Assembly (NCBI GenBank): GCA_014378805.1
Contig: JACMMY010000222.1
Span: 1-35,534 of the forward strand
Source of the DNA: Moraxellaceae bacterium
GTDB taxonomy: Bacteria > Pseudomonadota > Gammaproteobacteria > Pseudomonadales > Moraxellaceae
Length of the DNA stretch: 35,534 nt
Direction of reading: 5' to 3'
How positions within the stretch are numbered: position 1 is the first letter of the stretch; each line of letters opens with the position of its first letter. The translations under genes and the position numbers were made by a program. The notes beneath the pieces are model-generated. The model saw only the letters and a list, made by a program, of their open reading frames with translations, did not search any database and was not told the DNA's origin. This document shows, piece after piece, positions 2,464-30,271 of this stretch.

Positions 2464-3903
2464 ATGGAACTGTTTGACCGACCGAGTGGTGGCGAACGCG
2501 CACTATTGGTTCACCTGAATATTAATCAAATCGACCATCAAGATCTTGAAGAATTTCGATTGCTTTCCCAATCGGCAGGCGCTGAAATTATTGATCTGAT
2601 TACTGGCTCTCGCAAAAGACCTGATGCTCGGCTTTTTGTTGGTAAAGGCAAGGCTGAGGAAATACATCAATCCGTCGTTCAGAATGCGATTGATCTGGTG
2701 ATCTTTGATCACACCTTGACGCCTGCGCAAGAGCGCAATTTAGAAAAAATATTTGAATGTCGCGTTGTAGATCGGACAGGTTTGATTCTGGATATTTTCG
2801 CCCAACGTGCGCGAACATTTGAAGGCAAACTGCAAGTCGAACTCGCTCAGCTTGACCATTTGGCTTCTCGCCTCGTGCGCGGTTGGACTCACCTTGAGCG
2901 CCAAGGTGGTGGTATTGGTCTACGAGGTCCTGGTGAAACGCAGCTTGAAACCGACCGTCGTTTATTGCAAATTCGTGTTGGGCAATTAAAAGATCGTCTC
3001 AACAAAGTTCGCCAGACTCGCAAACAAGGTCGCGCGGCTCGCCAAAAAGCTGATATCCCAACCGTTTCCTTAGTCGGTTATACCAATGCTGGCAAATCGA
3101 CGATGTTTAATCGACTTGCTGAAAGCGATGTTTACGTTGCCAATCAACTATTCGCAACACTCGATCCAACACTACGTCGCTTAGAATGGCAAGGTCTAGG
3201 GCCTTTGGTTCTTGCAGATACCGTAGGTTTTGTGCGCCATTTGCCGCATGGATTGGTTGAGTCGTTCCGCGCAACCTTAGAAGAAACCTTAGAAGCTGAT
3301 TTACTGCTTCATGTGATTGATCAGAGCAGTGAAGATCGCGACGAACAAATTGATGCCGTAGAAGCTGTGCTTAAAGAAATTGGTGCTGAAGTGCCTATTC
3401 TCAGGGTCTACAATAAAATTGATATTAGCGGTGATGCACCTTCACTCCATGAAGGCTCACCCGATGTGCCTGACCGTGTCTATGTGTCCGCCTATAGCGG
3501 TGCGGGCATGGACTTGCTCAAACAAGCGGTACAACAACGTCTTTCTGTTGGCAAAGTCTCGACTTTTCACCTGACCTTACCGCTTAGCGCGGGACGTTTG
3601 CGTAGTCAGTTCTACCGATTAGGCGTCATTCAAACTGAAAACACCCTTGATAATGGCGCGTCTGAATTAGCGGTCATGCTTGCCATTCCTTTACTGGCGC
3701 GAATTCTGGCAGAAGCGCAGGTGAATCCTGATGATGTTTTGCCTGAAGCTGAAGCGATCTTATTTCGCAGAACGTTGGAACATTTTGAATTGGCAAAAAT
3801 TGAGCGTGCGCAAGCCTTAGCCAATCAAGAGGAAACGTTTGAAGACCTCGATATTGAAGATGCTGATCTCGAAGAATTGACATCACCTATTCATTATTCT
3901 TAA
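2464..3903 (+). CDS. hflX: GTPase HflX
   Basis: HflX N-terminal domain, RGPGETQLETDRR, GYTNAGKST P-loop, DTVGFVRHLPH motif. Confidence 0.95.
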   Translation: MELFDRPSGGERALLVHLNINQIDHQDLEEFRLLSQSAGAEIIDLITGSRKRPDARLFVGKGKAEEIHQSVVQNAIDLVIFDHTLTPAQERNLEKIFECRVVDRTGLILDIFAQRARTFEGKLQVELAQLDHLASRLVRGWTHLERQGGGIGLRGPGETQLETDRRLLQIRVGQLKDRLNKVRQTRKQGRAARQKADIPTVSLVGYTNAGKSTMFNRLAESDVYVANQLFATLDPTLRRLEWQGLGPLVLADTVGFVRHLPHGLVESFRATLEETLEADLLLHVIDQSSEDRDEQIDAVEAVLKEIGAEVPILRVYNKIDISGDAPSLHEGSPDVPDRVYVSAYSGAGMDLLKQAVQQRLSVGKVSTFHLTLPLSAGRLRSQFYRLGVIQTENTLDNGASELAVMLAIPLLARILAEAQVNPDDVLPEAEAILFRRTLEHFELAKIERAQALANQEETFEDLDIEDADLEELTSPIHYS

Positions 3904-3912
3904 TAAACAGCC

Positions 3913-4371
3913 ATGACGACTATCCATTCAGATCAAAACGGCACAATCAACAGTGCCATCGACAACGAAATCACTCTCGAGAATCAACCTCAAACCGATT
4001 CCGCTCCAGTGGCTTTTGATTGGAAAATACTGATTGTCGTGACGGTGATTATTATCTTTATCCGTGAAGTCTCTGTTTGGCTGATGACACAAATTGGTTA
4101 TACAAACTTAGGCAACTTCTTAGGCTTATTTTTATTATTTGGCTTTGCAATTGCCTATCGCATATCGAAGGGTGACATCCCTACTCGAATCGTCACTGCA
4201 AACGCAAAAATACTCAAAGAAGGTATTTTTGCATTTCTGCCGATTTGTGCTGGCATCGGCACACTACTGGTTGGATTAGGAAATGACGCGGTCAAGATTC
4301 TGTTTATTATGGTTATTAGTACACTCATTCCCATGCGCATTTACGCCTACATCGTGAAGAAGTGGTTATGA
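3913..4371 (+). CDS. LrgA/CidA-family holin-like membrane protein
   Basis: Four hydrophobic segments, 4-bp ATGA overlap with a following LrgB-like gene; primary sequence matches LrgA only loosely. Confidence 0.55.
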   Translation: MTTIHSDQNGTINSAIDNEITLENQPQTDSAPVAFDWKILIVVTVIIIFIREVSVWLMTQIGYTNLGNFLGLFLLFGFAIAYRISKGDIPTRIVTANAKILKEGIFAFLPICAGIGTLLVGLGNDAVKILFIMVISTLIPMRIYAYIVKKWL

Positions 4372-7738: not shown

Positions 7739-8523
7739 GCCACCAAACTTCCGCCCCAAACACAACCGCCATCGAGTGGAACCGCATTCAACATCTGCCC
7801 TGCACCTTCTAGAGCGGCCCAATGTCCAAACAAAACATTTTCTATCCGCTTAAATTGGGGTTGCCAATTAAACCACGGTGCAAAACCATCGGGCATCGGC
7901 GCATCCAGACCATCTTTAAACGCAAACTCTAAACGACCATCCGCATCAACCAAACGCATCCGAGTCAGGTAATTGGTAATCACACGAAGCCGCACTGAAC
8001 CCTCTAAATCATCAGACCAAACATCTGGATCATTACCATACATATTTTCAAGAAAACGATCTAACTCAATAAATGTGCCACGCAAGGTCATCGCGACTTC
8101 AAACGCTAGACTTTCGGCTTGCGCTATCGTCCAGCAATGCGGCAAACCTGCGTGCGTCAATACATAATCAGCATTCGGACGCAGCAATAACGGCTGTTTA
8201 CGCAACCAATTCAAAAGCACAGGTGCATCAGGCGCTTCTAAAATCGGTGTAGTTCGGTCGTTTTTGCGAATTTTGTTATAGCCACGCCAGACTGCGAGCA
8301 GATTCAGGTCGTGATTACCTAGCACCGTCCGCGCAACATCTTTTTCACATAATTTTTTTACAAAACGTAAGGTCGCAAGCGAATCTTCACCGCGTGCAAC
8401 CAAATCGCCTGCAAACCACAGACAATCTTGTTTTTCGTCAAATTCAATGTGTTCGAGCAAGGTTTGTAGTGCGGTAAAACAGCCTTGCAAATCACCGATC
8501 ACATAGTTGTAGCGTATTGGCAT
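7681..8523 (-). CDS. apaH: Bis(5'-nucleosyl)-tetraphosphatase, symmetrical (ApaH)
   Basis: VIGDLQGCFTALQTLL, FAGDLVARGEDSLATLRFV, VLGNHDLNLLAV, THAGLPHCW motifs. Confidence 0.95.
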   Translation of the reverse strand: MPIRYNYVIGDLQGCFTALQTLLEHIEFDEKQDCLWFAGDLVARGEDSLATLRFVKKLCEKDVARTVLGNHDLNLLAVWRGYNKIRKNDRTTPILEAPDAPVLLNWLRKQPLLLRPNADYVLTHAGLPHCWTIAQAESLAFEVAMTLRGTFIELDRFLENMYGNDPDVWSDDLEGSVRLRVITNYLTRMRLVDADGRLEFAFKDGLDAPMPDGFAPWFNWQPQFKRIENVLFGHWAALEGAGQMLNAVPLDGGCVWGGSLVAYRLEDGQRFSTTAGCGLG

Positions 8524-9440
8524 TATTGATTATCCACACTCTCATCAGCATCATCAGATAAATCAACAATCGCCTGAATATCTTTCACGTTCATGTCGAC
8601 ATAATCCGCCAACGCCACAAAGTCAGCAATACTCAACGTTTCAGGACGTGCCATCGGGCTAATACCAAGCTGGGCAAAGCCCGCTTCATCAACTTGACCT
8701 TTTAAGGTGTTGCGCAAAGTTTTACGACGTTGGTTAAACACTTGTGAAACCAATGCAGCAAGTAGTTTTTCATTTCGCGCTTGCACAGGTTTAACCGCAT
8801 AAGGTTCTAAACGGAAAACCGCACTGGTGACTTTTGGTGGTGGATTAAACGCACCCGGTGGCACCTCAAACAAGAATGTCGGTTTACAGTAATACTGAAT
8901 CATCACTGACAAACGCCCAAAATCTTTGTTTTTTGGTTCAGCAACGATGCGGTCAACCACTTCTTTTTGCAGCATAAAGTGCATGTCTTTGACTGCTGCA
9001 CCGTAGCGAATGAGATGAAAAAGCAACGGCGTTGAAATGTTATACGGCAAATTTCCAACTACACGCAGCGGTTTATCCAATTTTTCCATTTGCGCGAAGT
9101 CAAAACGCAGCGCATCGCCTTCAACAATCGTTAAATGCTGTGGATGGCCCATGCGCGCTGGCAAGGTTGCCGCCAAATCACGGTCTAACTCCAGCACGGT
9201 CAAATGCGATGACGCCGCTAACAAAGGTGCAGTCAACGCCCCCATTCCCGGCCCGATCTCAACGAGGTTATCACCGAGACGCGGTGCAACGGCTTGAACA
9301 ATTCGCCCAATGACCCGTTGATCATGCAGGAAGTTTTGTCCAAAACGCTTACGTGCTTTATGACCTTTTAGCTCAGGTTCTGCAAATAACAAAGCATCGC
9401 TATCAAACGTTTCGGAATTTGTCATGGGGGAAAATCTCAA
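8523..9440 (-). CDS. rsmA: 16S rRNA (adenine1518/1519-N6)-dimethyltransferase
   Basis: KRFGQNFLHDQRVIGRIV, VEIGPGMGALT, VVGNLPYNISTPLLFHL, VPPGAFNPPPKVTSAVF motifs; adjacent to apaH. Start may be the internal ATG at 9425 (MTNSE). Confidence 0.95.
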   Translation of the reverse strand: MRFSPMTNSETFDSDALLFAEPELKGHKARKRFGQNFLHDQRVIGRIVQAVAPRLGDNLVEIGPGMGALTAPLLAASSHLTVLELDRDLAATLPARMGHPQHLTIVEGDALRFDFAQMEKLDKPLRVVGNLPYNISTPLLFHLIRYGAAVKDMHFMLQKEVVDRIVAEPKNKDFGRLSVMIQYYCKPTFLFEVPPGAFNPPPKVTSAVFRLEPYAVKPVQARNEKLLAALVSQVFNQRRKTLRNTLKGQVDEAGFAQLGISPMARPETLSIADFVALADYVDMNVKDIQAIVDLSDDADESVDNQ

Positions 9441-11725: not shown

Positions 11726-11883
11726 AGTGAGGTTTAGAGATCTCTCTTCACGTTTGTGATTGAGCCCTTGAAAAGTTTGATACGGGATCAGCATACTTAG
11801 GATGAGCTTCAGCCCATCAACAACATTTAATACACTCCTCACCCAACAATAACAACCTCATTGTGACAATAAAAATGACCTCT

Positions 11884-12048
11884 TTTTGTCCAAACCGTTT
11901 ACGCGCTATATGACCTTTTAGCTCAGGTTCTGCGAATAGCAAAGCAGCGCGATCAAACGTTCCGGTTTTCACTCATTGGGGAATCTCAGGTTTTCTAGGT
12001 GTAATAAAGGGGTTATTTTGCATGATTGAGTGGGTGAGATGATATGGA
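11884..12048 (-). pseudogene. Diverged remnant of the rsmA 5' end plus upstream region (direct repeat of 9334-9504)
   Basis: Aligns by eye over ~165 nt with 9334-9504, e.g. ATGACCTTTTAGCTCAGGTTCTGC[A/G]AATA[A/G]CAAAGCA and GTAATAA..[TATTTT][A/G]CATGA; roughly four fifths of positions agree. Confidence 0.85.
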
Positions 12049-12187: not shown

Positions 12188-12901
12188 CTAGCTCTTTGCG
12201 ATGTTTTTAAACGCATTTTTGACCTTTTGGATCGCATATCTATTCATATGTTGCGCACGCCTATCCCAATGACTCGCGGTCTGCTCTAATTTGGCTTTAA
12301 TGATCTGTGCTTGCTCCAACTCCTTCTGTTTTAGCAAGCAAATGGCATATTCCACACAAATCTCAACACTACCAAAGCAGCGCATTAAATATTCGAATTG
12401 CTCACGCGCAGCATCATTTTCACCCATTTCAGCCAGAGTAAGAGCAGCCAACAAGGTCACATCTTCGACATGATAGTTCGCATCTTTCGCACGACTATCA
12501 CTCAACAAAACCAAGACTCGTTGATGTTGATTCACATCAAAATTCGCATAAGCTGTTACTAAACGCACCTGTAAATCTGAATCAGATGCCCGCGTTAAAC
12601 AGGACTCAAACTCCTTCACTGCTTCAATCATATTCCCCATTGCTCGCAGTGCATTTGCCACGCGCAGATGGTTATGCACCGATGCAGTCAGGTTATATGC
12701 CTGACGTGCAGCCAAGAGCTCTCGGTTTGGATTTAAAACTCCTGAGGTCTGGGCTGTGAACTGACGAAAACCATAGTGCATGCGAGTGTTGGGTAAAAAA
12801 ATCGCAATAATGACATGCAAGCCAATACCATAAATTGAAAAATATTCAAACAATTGAACTAAGTTACCCACAAAAATGATCCTTATTATTAATTTCGTCA
12901 C
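12188..12901 (-). CDS. TPR-repeat membrane-anchored protein
   Basis: Hydrophobic N-terminus then TPR-like helices (VHNHLRVANALRAMGNMIEAVKEFESCL; LLAALTLAEMGENDAAREQFEYLM). Confidence 0.65.
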   Translation of the reverse strand: MTKLIIRIIFVGNLVQLFEYFSIYGIGLHVIIAIFLPNTRMHYGFRQFTAQTSGVLNPNRELLAARQAYNLTASVHNHLRVANALRAMGNMIEAVKEFESCLTRASDSDLQVRLVTAYANFDVNQHQRVLVLLSDSRAKDANYHVEDVTLLAALTLAEMGENDAAREQFEYLMRCFGSVEICVEYAICLLKQKELEQAQIIKAKLEQTASHWDRRAQHMNRYAIQKVKNAFKNIAKS

Positions 12902-13150
12902 ACGATCTTATCGTAGCGCTGTTACACAAGTCCACTAAACAAGGCTCATCATCTCCAGATGTTTTATATTCATTGCAACAATCAAGCGTGGATATGTGAC
13001 GAAGTTGCGATATTGGAAATATTCAATGTTTCATCGGGATATAAATTCAGAGATTTATTAAAATCTAAATTAAGATTAAGTTGTTTATTTTAATAAATAA
13101 TTTTGATCTAAAACCATCCTGAGAATGCTTTTATTGCTTCAAGTTGAACA

Positions 13151-13222
13151 ATTAGACCAATTAGACCAATTAGACCAATTAGACCAATTAGACCAATTAG
13201 ACCAATTAGACCAATTAGACCA
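13151..13222. repeat. Tandem array of eight perfect 9-bp units ATTAGACCA
   Basis: Counted directly: 13151-13222 = 8 x ATTAGACCA. Confidence 0.97.
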
Positions 13223-13239
13223 ACTTTAGTATAGTTGGT
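13219..13239. promoter_or_regulatory. Candidate operator palindrome upstream of the TA module
   Basis: ACCAACT TTAGTAT AGTTGGT, 7-bp perfect arms, overlapping the last tandem unit and ~18 nt before the antitoxin start. Confidence 0.4.
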
Positions 13240-13256
13240 TAAAAATGAGGTGAACA

Positions 13257-13496
13257 ATGATTATTAATCTATCCGAGGCAAAAGCGCATTTATCCGAGTT
13301 GGTGCAACGCGCCTATCAGGGTGAAGAAATTATTATTGCCAAAAATAATTTACCGCTTGTTGAACTCGTCGTTCATCGCCCAAAGAGCAAAGTAATCCTT
13401 GGTTTACTCAAAGATCATCCATCGCGTGATGCGCTCAATGCCGCACTAGACATAGATGTCAGTAATTTATGGGATGGTGAGGTATTTCCGCAGTGA
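13257..13496 (+). CDS. Phd/YefM-type antitoxin of a type II toxin-antitoxin module
   Basis: MIINLSEAKAHLSELVQRAYQGEEIIIAKNNLPLVELVV is the typical Phd/YefM N-terminus; followed by an overlapping PIN toxin frame (GTGA). Confidence 0.85.
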   Translation: MIINLSEAKAHLSELVQRAYQGEEIIIAKNNLPLVELVVHRPKSKVILGLLKDHPSRDALNAALDIDVSNLWDGEVFPQ

Positions 13497-13865
13497 ACAT
13501 TTTGATCGACACGCATATTTTTTTATGGGCATTAACAAACCCAGATAACATAACCACCGAACAAACCTCAGCCTTACAAAATCCTCATAATCACATTTAT
13601 GTCAGTGCAATGAGCATCACCGAAATCATCATCAAAGCCAGTATAGGCAAGCTAGATGTTAATTTCGACCCTGTGGAAATTGCTAAAAAAAAGCAGATTC
13701 AATTTGCTCGATTACCGCGCTGAAGACGCTTTATTTCTACAAGCGCTGCCGTTACATCACAAAGACCCATTTGATCGGATGCTGATCGCGCAAGCAAAAG
13801 CGAACGATATGACGATTATGGCCAATGATTCTTTGTTTAGGCGTTATGATTGCGAATTGATTTAA
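13493..13865 (+). pseudogene. PIN-domain (VapC-like) toxin split by a frameshift near 13718-13723
   Basis: GTG-started ORF MNILIDTHIFLWALTNPD...FARLPR* ends at 13723; the C-terminal PIN half RAEDALFLQALPLHHKDPFDRMLIAQAKANDMTIMANDSLFRRYDCELI continues in a different frame to 13865. Confidence 0.85.
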
Positions 13866-14048
13866 TCTTTGAGTAGATAAAGTCCATCTACAATTCTTTA
13901 GCTGACAAATAAGACGTGAATTGTGAAAGTTACTCCATGACACTAAACTATCGCACTAATAAAAAAACGATAATTCATCTTGACTTAGCTACAACTTAAT
14001 GACACATTCAGCCCTATATTTACTTTTATTTTCAAATCAAAACAGGGA

Positions 14049-14098
14049 TCTTATGTGGCAACTTTTGGCATCTTATGTGTCACCTCTGCCGCATAAGA
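14049..14098. repeat. 12-bp inverted repeat (one mismatch) left of the cassette boundary
   Basis: TCTTATGTGGCA (14049-14060) versus TGCCGCATAAGA (14087-14098). Confidence 0.6.
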
Positions 14099-14119
14099 GT
14101 AGTTAGGCATTAGGGATAA

Positions 14120-15004
14120 ATGAGAGCGAGGTGTCTGGTGAGCTACAAAGAAGCAGTGTCGAAATGGGAATCGCGTGGAAAGCCGCTCATTGTCGAAGGC
14201 GCGAACAGTCGAATCTGGCGCGAAGGAAGTGGGGAGCCAGTAATTTGTCTGCATGGTGTGCCTGCGTCTGGGTTCTTGTACCGAAAGGTGCTTCCCGAAC
14301 TTGCTGCGCGTGGGTTGGAGGGAATCACATTTGATCTGCCAGGAATGGGATTTGCGGATCGCCCCTCGGATTTCGACTATTCATGGAGCGGTTTGTCGCA
14401 GTGGACCGTCAAGGCAATCGACGCCGCTGGCATAGATAAATTCCACCTAGTAGTTCATGACATCGGCGGGCCGGTCGGATTCGACGTAATCAGGCAGATT
14501 CCCGGTAGAATACGCTCGCTAACCGTACTCAACACGTTGGTAAGAGCCGCTAGCTTTCATCGTCCGTGGGTTATGGAGCCATTTGCTCACCCAATAATTG
14601 GTTCGCTTTGGGTTGCTTCGATGCGGACGCCAATGATCATTCCTCTAATGCGCACAATCGGAATGCACGATGGACCTAGCAACGACGACCTGCGGGCATA
14701 CGGCTACCTGCTCACTCGCGTTGACGGAGGCGTGGCATTCAGAAAGGTAATGCGTGGCTTTGAGCGAACATCGGAATTCGAGAGTAGAATCGTCTCTGCT
14801 CTTAAAACGCGGAAATTTCCCGCGCAAGTAATATGGGGCGCTGAGGATCCGGCGCTGAAGATGTCCAGATATGCTCCGGAAATCTGCGAGGTCCTTGGCC
14901 TGAATTCCTGGCACAAGGTTCGTGGAAAGCACTTCCTTCAGGAAGACTCACCGAAAGAAATTGCGCAGCTAGTTGCATCATTCGTTGAGGGTCAAAGGAA
15001 GTGA
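14120..15004 (+). CDS. Alpha/beta hydrolase, haloalkane dehalogenase-like
   Basis: ICLHGVPASGFLYRKVLPELAARG, LVVHDIGGPVGFD (Asp at the nucleophile position), VIWGAEDPAL, GKHFLQEDSP catalytic His region. Start may be 14138 or another nearby codon. Confidence 0.8.
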   Translation: MRARCLVSYKEAVSKWESRGKPLIVEGANSRIWREGSGEPVICLHGVPASGFLYRKVLPELAARGLEGITFDLPGMGFADRPSDFDYSWSGLSQWTVKAIDAAGIDKFHLVVHDIGGPVGFDVIRQIPGRIRSLTVLNTLVRAASFHRPWVMEPFAHPIIGSLWVASMRTPMIIPLMRTIGMHDGPSNDDLRAYGYLLTRVDGGVAFRKVMRGFERTSEFESRIVSALKTRKFPAQVIWGAEDPALKMSRYAPEICEVLGLNSWHKVRGKHFLQEDSPKEIAQLVASFVEGQRK

Positions 15005-15026: not shown

Positions 15027-15089
15027 CGCTAATGCATCCATTCGCTGCAGGCACGATGGCCCTGACGAGCCGCGGCCTGAGCTCAAACG
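15027..15089 (+). other. attC-like recombination site of the candidate cassette
   Basis: GCTAATGCATCCATTCGCTGCAGGC ... GCCGCGGCCTGAGCTCAAACG; the right half closely resembles the common attC right half GCGCGGCTTAACTCAAGCG^TTRRRY. Left core is degenerate (GCTAATG rather than RYYYAAC). Confidence 0.5.
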
Positions 15090-28903: not shown

Positions 28904-30223
28904 GTGAGCTTGCTCAATAACTTTGTAGTGCTTGGTATTTTAATCGCATGTAGCGCGTTTCTATCGATGTCAGAAATCTCGATTGCTGCTGCAAGAAAAA
29001 TTAAACTTCAACTTCTTCTGGCCGAAGGTAAATTAGGCGCGCAGAAAGTGCTTACTGTCCAAGATCAAGCAGGGAACTTTTTTGCGGCGACGCAAATTGG
29101 CTTAAATGCAGTCGCGATTTTAGGGGGTATTTTAGGTCAAGCCGCATTCACGCCCTACATCCAATACTTTATCAGTCAATTTTATAATGGTGACATGCTG
29201 GGCACGATTAGCTTTGTGCTGTCCTTTATTTTTGTGACATCGTTATTCATACTCTTTGCAGATCTCATGCCGAAACGTATTGCCATGACTGCGCCTGAGC
29301 AAGTCTCTATTCGACTGGTTAGCCCATTATTATTTTTTATTAAAATCTGTACACCGCTGATTTTATTGATTAATGGTGCAGCAAATGCACTCTTTAAACT
29401 TTTTAAAATTTCAACCGTTCGTAATGACGCGATCACTTACGACGATATTTACGCCATGGTCGATGCAGGCGCACAAACGGGTGCTATTCATAAACAAGAA
29501 TTTCATCTGATTGAAAATGTGTTTGAACTTGAGTCACGCACTGTACCCTCATCGATGACCTCACGCGAAAGTATTATTTATTTTACCTTACAAGAAAGTA
29601 ACGACAGCCTAAAACAGAAAATTGCCGCACATCCGCATTCAAAATTTTTAATCTGTGACCAAACGATTGATACCGTAATTGGCTATGTCGACACCAAAGA
29701 TATTTTACTTCGCATGATCAACAATCAACCACTCGCACAAATTTACGAATCCAATATTCGCGCGGTATTAATGATTCCAGACTCACTGACGCTGTCGGAG
29801 CTATTAGCGCGATTTAAAGCCACACGTGAAGATTTTGCAGCCGTGATCAATGAATACGCATTAGTCGTCGGTGTCATTACGCTGAATGACATCATGAGCA
29901 CCGTAATGGGCAACTTGGTCAGTCAAAGCCAAGAAGAACAAGTGATGCAGCGCGATGAAAATTCATGGCTCGTCGATGGAGCAACGCCGATTGGTGATGT
30001 GAAAAATGCTCTTGGACTCGAGTTTTTGCCTGATGACGACAACTATGAAACGATCGCAGGTTTTATCATGTACATGCTACGTAAAATTCCGAAACTTACA
30101 GATTTTGTTGAGTTTGCGGGATTTAAATTCGAAGTCGTCGATATTGATCACTATAAAATTGACCAACTTCTTGTTACACGTATAATTATACCCTCACAAG
30201 TCTCTGAAGAAACTCATCATTAA
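28904..30223 (+). CDS. CNNM/CBS-domain transporter family (HlyC/CorC-like)
   Basis: GTG start; CSAFLSMSEISIAAARKIKLQLLLAEGKLGAQKVLTVQDQ...LIENVFELESRTVPSSMTSRESI...GYVDTKDIL...VINEYALVVGVITLNDIMSTVMG. Confidence 0.92.
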   Translation: MSLLNNFVVLGILIACSAFLSMSEISIAAARKIKLQLLLAEGKLGAQKVLTVQDQAGNFFAATQIGLNAVAILGGILGQAAFTPYIQYFISQFYNGDMLGTISFVLSFIFVTSLFILFADLMPKRIAMTAPEQVSIRLVSPLLFFIKICTPLILLINGAANALFKLFKISTVRNDAITYDDIYAMVDAGAQTGAIHKQEFHLIENVFELESRTVPSSMTSRESIIYFTLQESNDSLKQKIAAHPHSKFLICDQTIDTVIGYVDTKDILLRMINNQPLAQIYESNIRAVLMIPDSLTLSELLARFKATREDFAAVINEYALVVGVITLNDIMSTVMGNLVSQSQEEQVMQRDENSWLVDGATPIGDVKNALGLEFLPDDDNYETIAGFIMYMLRKIPKLTDFVEFAGFKFEVVDIDHYKIDQLLVTRIIIPSQVSEETHH

Positions 30224-30250
30224 AACTCATCATTAAAACTCATCATTAAA
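30212..30250. repeat. Three perfect tandem 13-bp units ACTCATCATTAAA plus a partial fourth
   Basis: 30212-30224, 30225-30237, 30238-30250, then ATTCATCAAGG; spans the stop codon of the preceding CDS. Confidence 0.95.
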
Positions 30251-30271
30251 ATTCATCAAGGAAATTCTGCA

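Follow-up and report, generated by a model that had tools for sequence, protein, structure and literature searches.

Eight perfect 9-bp repeats before a Phd-PIN toxin-antitoxin operon of a Moraxellaceae bacterium: probably an autorepressor operator expanded by slippage

Introduction

Does the number of sites that an antitoxin finds in front of its own genes set how tightly a toxin-antitoxin (TA) operon is shut off, and could replication slippage act as the tuner? The question is raised by a locus in which a short direct repeat runs into a palindrome upstream of a TA operon. It lies in a stretch of 35,534 nucleotides (contig JACMMY010000222.1, hereafter the window), which is one full contig of a 301-contig draft assembly of 2.56 Mb; the copy number of the array (eight) and the length of an A8 run in the toxin gene are as given by that draft assembly. 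A preliminary description of the sequence had offered three roles for the array, namely spacing the promoter, providing repeated binding sites, or acting as a phase-variation switch of the TA module.

Results and Discussion

The Repeat Array and the Palindrome

Four elements were distinguished upstream of the operon, with GACC positions and offsets counted from the start of the −35 sequence:

13142-13150, plus strand: degenerate unit AGTTGAACA, in which 6/9 bases match; also the array start, at one mismatch, in the family pattern scan
13151-13204, plus strand: units 1-6 of ATTAGACCA, additional half-sites that lie upstream of the promoter, with GACC at −52, −43, −34, −25, −16, and −7
13205-13222, plus strand: units 7-8 of ATTAGACCA, coinciding with the family-operator half-sites at positions 2 and 11
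13219-13239, no strand assigned: palindrome ACCAACT-N7-AGTTGGT, whose half-sites correspond to family-operator offsets 11 and 30

Direct reading gave eight identical 9-bp units at 13151-13222 with no mismatch, and TRF reported the same array with a period of 9, 8.3 copies, a 100% match, and a score of 150. When up to three mismatches were allowed, the two-unit 18-mer was matched eight times in the window, against 0.03 matches expected from shuffling. A genome-wide search at up to two mismatches returned the array locus and one isolated site, with two mismatches, on another contig, and the draft genome of 2.56 Mb has no other such array. The palindrome (ACCAACT-TTAGTAT-AGTTGGT) has perfectly matched arms and has ACCA in common with unit 8. 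Thus, the perfect eightfold repeat, its overlap with the palindrome, and the degenerate unit that precedes it are all as the preliminary description had reported them. No Rfam match for an RNA element was found around the array (12900-14150).

The Antitoxin Gene and the Split Toxin Gene

The operon downstream of the array comprises the following features:

13247-13252, plus strand: Shine-Dalgarno-like GAGGTG, read directly from the sequence
13257-13496, plus strand: Phd/YefM-family antitoxin of 79 aa, a predicted autorepressor, above Pfam and NCBIfam cut-offs
13493-13865, plus strand: gene of the PIN-domain (VapC-like) toxin, interrupted by a +1 frameshift
13685-13692, plus strand: A8 run that breaks the toxin frame with one extra base

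The antitoxin belongs to the Phd/YefM family by both profiles used, Pfam PF02604 (PhdYeFM; 30.9 bits for a cut-off of 29.8) and NCBIfam TIGR01552 (phd_fam; 32.9 for a cut-off of 20.8). Its AlphaFold model has a confident N-terminal b-a-a-b-b domain (E-H-H-E-E, residues 1-40, pLDDT about 93-94), whose nearest solved folds are those of Phd, including operator-DNA-bound structures (4zm0 and 4zm2), and of VapB46 (6jqy). The model therefore points to the N-terminal dimerisation and DNA-binding fold of Phd/YefM proteins, with match probabilities of 0.98-1.00 but E-values of 0.03-0.08, above 0.01. Searches by sequence among solved structures returned none for the antitoxin or the toxin. No relative of the antitoxin was found in phage records and only four, all distant, on plasmids, and a phage or plasmid origin was rejected on these grounds.

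The two genes overlap by four bases (GTGA, 13493-13496), as they do in most relatives, and together with the operator-like sites at the promoter this arrangement appears to be that of a type II TA operon. The toxin frame is interrupted in the A8 run, leaving an ORF of 76 aa (13493-13723), and the rest is readable in another frame (13656-13865). Both halves resemble PF01850, the first falling just under the cut-off, and the 76-aa product is devoid of the conserved C-terminal acidic residues of the PIN domain. The 27 distinct full-length toxins of the relatives measure 122-123 aa; the window toxin is thus not a full-length PIN/VapC protein with its conserved acidic residues. The TA operon announced in the preliminary description therefore stands, with an antitoxin that passes family cut-offs and a toxin of PIN type, but the split of the toxin had gone unremarked. 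The frame break at A8 may be a genuine mutation, a site of slippage, or an artefact of assembly, and, because the toxin is frameshifted, the module may be decaying. The normal toxin co-repressor is probably missing in the window. We also observed that one operon holds two slippery tracts, the A8 homopolymer in the toxin gene and the repeat array in the operator.

An Operator Shared by Relatives That Have No Array

Relatives of the antitoxin were gathered from whole genomes and GTDB contigs, and the DNA upstream of their genes was read. Twenty-nine relatives have no array; they are evolutionarily non-independent, several coming from closely related Desulfobacterota. Their promoters follow a common plan (−35 TTGACC, 17 bp, −10 TATNNT), overlaid with GRYC half-sites (GACC/GGTC) located 2, 11, (21), and 30 bases from the start of the −35 sequence, the word at offset 21 being a degenerate GGTA that overlaps the −10. 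These relatives carry the short word only two to four times across the promoter.

Pairs of GACC/GGTC words were found 9 bp apart in 17 of the 29 array-less upstream regions and 19 bp apart in 10 of them, whereas none of 300 dinucleotide-preserving shuffled sets gave more than 2. When the regions were aligned on their promoters, GRYC occurred at offset 2 in 26/29, a count that is partly by construction since promoters were placed by the best match to TTGACC and TATAAT (manually, at TTGACT, for L035 and L044). It occurred at offset 11 in 23/29 and at offset 30 in 12/29 (23/29 when one mismatch to GACC or GGTC is allowed), for a background of 2% at each of the three offsets; promoter placement has no bearing on the pair-distance test or on the counts for offsets 11 and 30. 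Further upstream, at −25, −16, and −7, the word was present in 1, 0, and 0 of the 29 regions. This layout for a Phd-PIN operon, with GRYC words at 9/10/9 bp over TTGACC-17-TATNNT, was absent from the open-access literature searched.

The Array Lies in Register with the Conserved Operator

Alignment with these relatives places the promoter of the window as follows:

13207-13212, plus strand: predicted −35 TAGACC, inside unit 7, aligned with the TTGACC of the relatives
13230-13235, plus strand: predicted −10 TATAGT, 17 bp from the −35

TAGACC-17-TATAGT was the only promoter-like match on the plus strand in 12900-14150, its −35 being weaker than the TTGACC of the family. Consensus promoter matches were no commoner than in shuffles, so the assignment rests on the alignment with the relatives. 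Units 7 and 8 fall exactly on offsets 2 and 11, the right arm of the palindrome falls exactly on offset 30, and units 1-6 extend the 9-bp register upstream, from −7 to −52. From this match in register, the palindrome would correspond to the conserved half-sites 11 and 30, and the array to the offset-2 half-site multiplied upstream. Among the roles first offered for the array, comparison with the relatives strongly supports repeated binding sites, the unit appearing to be the family operator half-site, and also backs the suggestion that the palindrome is an antitoxin operator. A role in spacing the promoter did not hold up: as the predicted −35 lies inside unit 7, the gain or loss of whole units rebuilds the same −35/−10 pair and changes only the number of upstream sites. 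These results suggest that the array is probably the autorepressor operator of the Phd-PIN operon, expanded by slippage.

The array could otherwise be coding, since a 34-residue ORF, MLLLLQVEQ(LDQ)8L (13125-13229), spans all of it, with 9 bp amounting to three codons, and might give a leader peptide. However, no clear Shine-Dalgarno sequence precedes its ATG, the repeat is in any case open in four of its six frames, the predicted promoter sits within the ORF, and what the relatives conserve is the half-sites and not the ORF, all of which makes a leader peptide very improbable. Where short direct repeats lie close to a TA module, a plasmid is the typical setting. The array does adjoin such a module and might consist of iterons, or form the partition (centromere) array of some mobile element, with no relation to the antitoxin. 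We give this reading almost no credence: the contig is chromosomal in content (pdxA, rsmA, and ribosomal protein genes, named from their sequence), no replication or partition gene was recognised nearby, and the unit is the half-site of the antitoxin operator in a conserved register.

A Possible Mode of Action of the Expanded Operator

We infer that the antitoxin binds these words cooperatively, that slippage multiplied them, and that expression is affected in the following way. The N-terminal dimer of the Phd-fold antitoxin would read GRYC words (GACC/GGTC) spaced about one helical turn apart, and the family operator would consist of two pairs of half-sites laid over the −35, the spacer, and the −10. 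In the window, the first pair may have become a perfect 9-bp direct repeat that grew upstream to eight copies by replication slippage. On the resulting continuous strip of half-sites, antitoxin dimers could load side by side, neighbouring dimers covering 9-bp steps much as omega dimers occupy the heptads of pSM19035. Gaining or losing units would leave the core promoter unchanged and alter how many dimers stack beside RNA polymerase; the extra units would thus tighten autorepression or make it more cooperative and would titrate some of the antitoxin, both effects being tuned by copy number. With the toxin co-repressor lacking, the extra sites might offset weak binding by the antitoxin alone, or they might be drifting. 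That a Phd-type antitoxin loads cooperatively on half-sites of slippage-variable number, that mutation of the repeat number thereby sets how strongly a Phd-PIN operon represses itself, and that the −35 is built into the repeat so as to preserve the core promoter through each change, is put forward here as a tentative and rather doubtful idea.

Arrays in Another Genus

Three species of a related genus, g10 (G026, G233, and G012), carry three, three, and four copies, respectively, of another unit, GACCAACTT, before the orthologous operon. All three have intact toxins of 123 aa, and in all three the TTGACC of the −35 falls within a unit. The closest relative of the window, which belongs to the window's own genus (L029 in G001; antitoxin 78% identical), has no array. 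Because the g10 unit differs from that of the window and this closest relative is array-less, the two expansions look independent. The window and g10 can be regarded as natural experiments in which an operator was lengthened. In the window's two sister species, L029 is a lone antitoxin gene and L057 only an antitoxin fragment, neither with an array.

No operator array beyond those of the window and g10 was found among 349 genomes of the family, 369 of the class, and 399 of the phylum, the class and phylum samples being thin and the scan patterns blind to arrays with a different core. Long arrays are rare across the genomes scanned, so the system can work without them. The other matches of the class- and phylum-wide scans were coding-type repeats only (judged from the sequence alone for the class). 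Two-mismatch matches in G020 and G121 had no Phd gene behind them and did not exceed the level of the reversed-pattern control, and they were rejected. Sixty-nine viral contigs with three-unit GACCAAYT arrays were also set aside, since these were mostly collagen-like GPT coding repeats, and no Phd gene was recognised behind any of them.

The g10 operons bear on a more modest explanation, in which units 7-8 and the palindrome form the operator and units 1-6 are a neutral product of slippage, tolerated because the toxin is broken. The split at A8, the reduction of the module to an antitoxin or a fragment of it in the two sister species, and the lack of upstream sites in array-less relatives all agree with such neutrality, as does the perfect identity of the units, which would imply little time under selection. 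However, g10 has multi-copy arrays of its own before intact toxin genes, so that additional units are also found in operons that look functional, and the half-site word was kept exactly in the added copies. We regard neutrality of units 1-6 as a real possibility, although well behind an operator whose added units contribute to repression.

Repeat number differs between sister g10 species (3, 3, and 4, with one genome per species), and this might be taken as the mark of a phase-variation switch or rheostat, in which copy number would shift the promoter geometry or the position of an upstream factor and so turn the operon up or down. Perfect repeats invite slippage, and promoter-proximal repeats do tune expression in other bacteria (PMC4081817). 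Nevertheless, the distance between −35 and −10 is constant at any copy number, the −35 lying within a unit, and a phase-variation switch would act on a toxin frame that is already broken at A8; we thus consider a switch of this type improbable. A −35 inside the repeat keeps the core promoter intact, which argues for a graded effect on repression, or no effect, rather than for a spacing switch. An expanded autorepressor operator would be compatible with such a graded effect.

Comparison with Known Regulatory Arrays and Operators

A close parallel in the literature examined is the omega-epsilon-zeta system of pSM19035, in which arrays of the heptad NATCACN precede the TA operon and omega loads cooperatively along them, one dimer per repeat (PMC4803016, PMC3920265, PMC3874152), with an affinity that depends on the number and orientation of the repeats (PMC3874152, PMC4803016). 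The window, known from its sequence, shares with it a short direct-repeat array ahead of a TA operon. The units differ, however, in length (7 bp for omega, 9 bp here) and in sequence, and omega is a ribbon-helix-helix regulator and not an antitoxin, unlike the predicted Phd-fold reader of the window.

In the YefM-YoeB and Axe-Txe systems, operator sites overlap the promoter with a spacing that is conserved among relatives (PMC7730913). The family described here resembles them in its antitoxin superfamily (Phd/YefM), in the overlap of sites with the promoter, and in the conserved spacing. Their operators are nevertheless two palindromes with TGTACA cores 12 bp apart from centre to centre and no arrays, whereas in the present family the half-sites are GRYC words spaced at 9/10/9 bp and the toxin is a PIN protein, not YoeB.

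P1 Phd-Doc has two adjacent palindromic operators that are bound by Phd dimers (PMC13034048, PMC4803016). The Phd fold is common to both systems, 4zm0 and 4zm2 being among the nearest solved structures, but the P1 toxin is Doc, and the likeness to P1 Phd is one of fold. We know of no tandem expansion in P1 Phd-Doc.

VapB46-VapC46 of Mycobacterium tuberculosis is close in antitoxin fold (6jqy; TM-scores of 0.77-0.82 on the target and an rmsd of 1.4-1.8 A across 41-42 columns), with a sequence identity to the window antitoxin of about 24%. The antitoxin of 6jqy is named VapB, and its partner is hence presumably a PIN toxin.

Simple sequence repeats close to promoters tune the expression of H. 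pylori sabA, N. meningitidis nadA, and M. catarrhalis uspA2, through DNA structure and phasing for sabA and through a separate bound factor for nadA (PMC4081817). The window likewise has a slippage-prone repeat beside a promoter, but its repeat would itself supply the operator word of that promoter, and the −35 lies within it.

Genomic Surroundings of the Operon

Downstream of the operon, positions 14024-14108 share 82-83% DNA identity with the region that adjoins the integrase gene in plasmid integrons of Acinetobacter, with an identical 36-base core, and are followed by a lone alpha/beta hydrolase gene (14120-15004), ending at ..AACGTTATATAACC near 15088. Together these resemble an orphan attI site that carries one cassette; the genome yielded no integron integrase exceeding the family cut-off. 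In the corresponding position next to pdxA, the antitoxin fragment L057 (G002, 3140-3920) is followed by similar attI-like DNA and the antitoxin gene L029 (G001, 3240-4370) by decayed attI-like DNA, and in both species another gene takes the place of the cassette. This insert is absent from G003, where pdxA and rsmA are close neighbours.

Upstream, the window holds a partial copy of the start of rsmA (11883-11960; 85% identity across 26 residues). The full gene (8523-9440) is 2.4 kb away, which would fit an insertion that opened the pdxA-rsmA junction and left one end duplicated. Just before the array, a decayed frame (12985-13050) resembles the end of a transposase-like gene that adjoins the antitoxin fragment in L057 and has weak Pfam support (Y1_Tnp, E = 0.047). 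Finally, a second tandem repeat, AAACTCATCATTA in 3.8 copies, was observed at 30210-30258 of the window, where it separates the end of a membrane-protein-like gene from an SDR-like gene.
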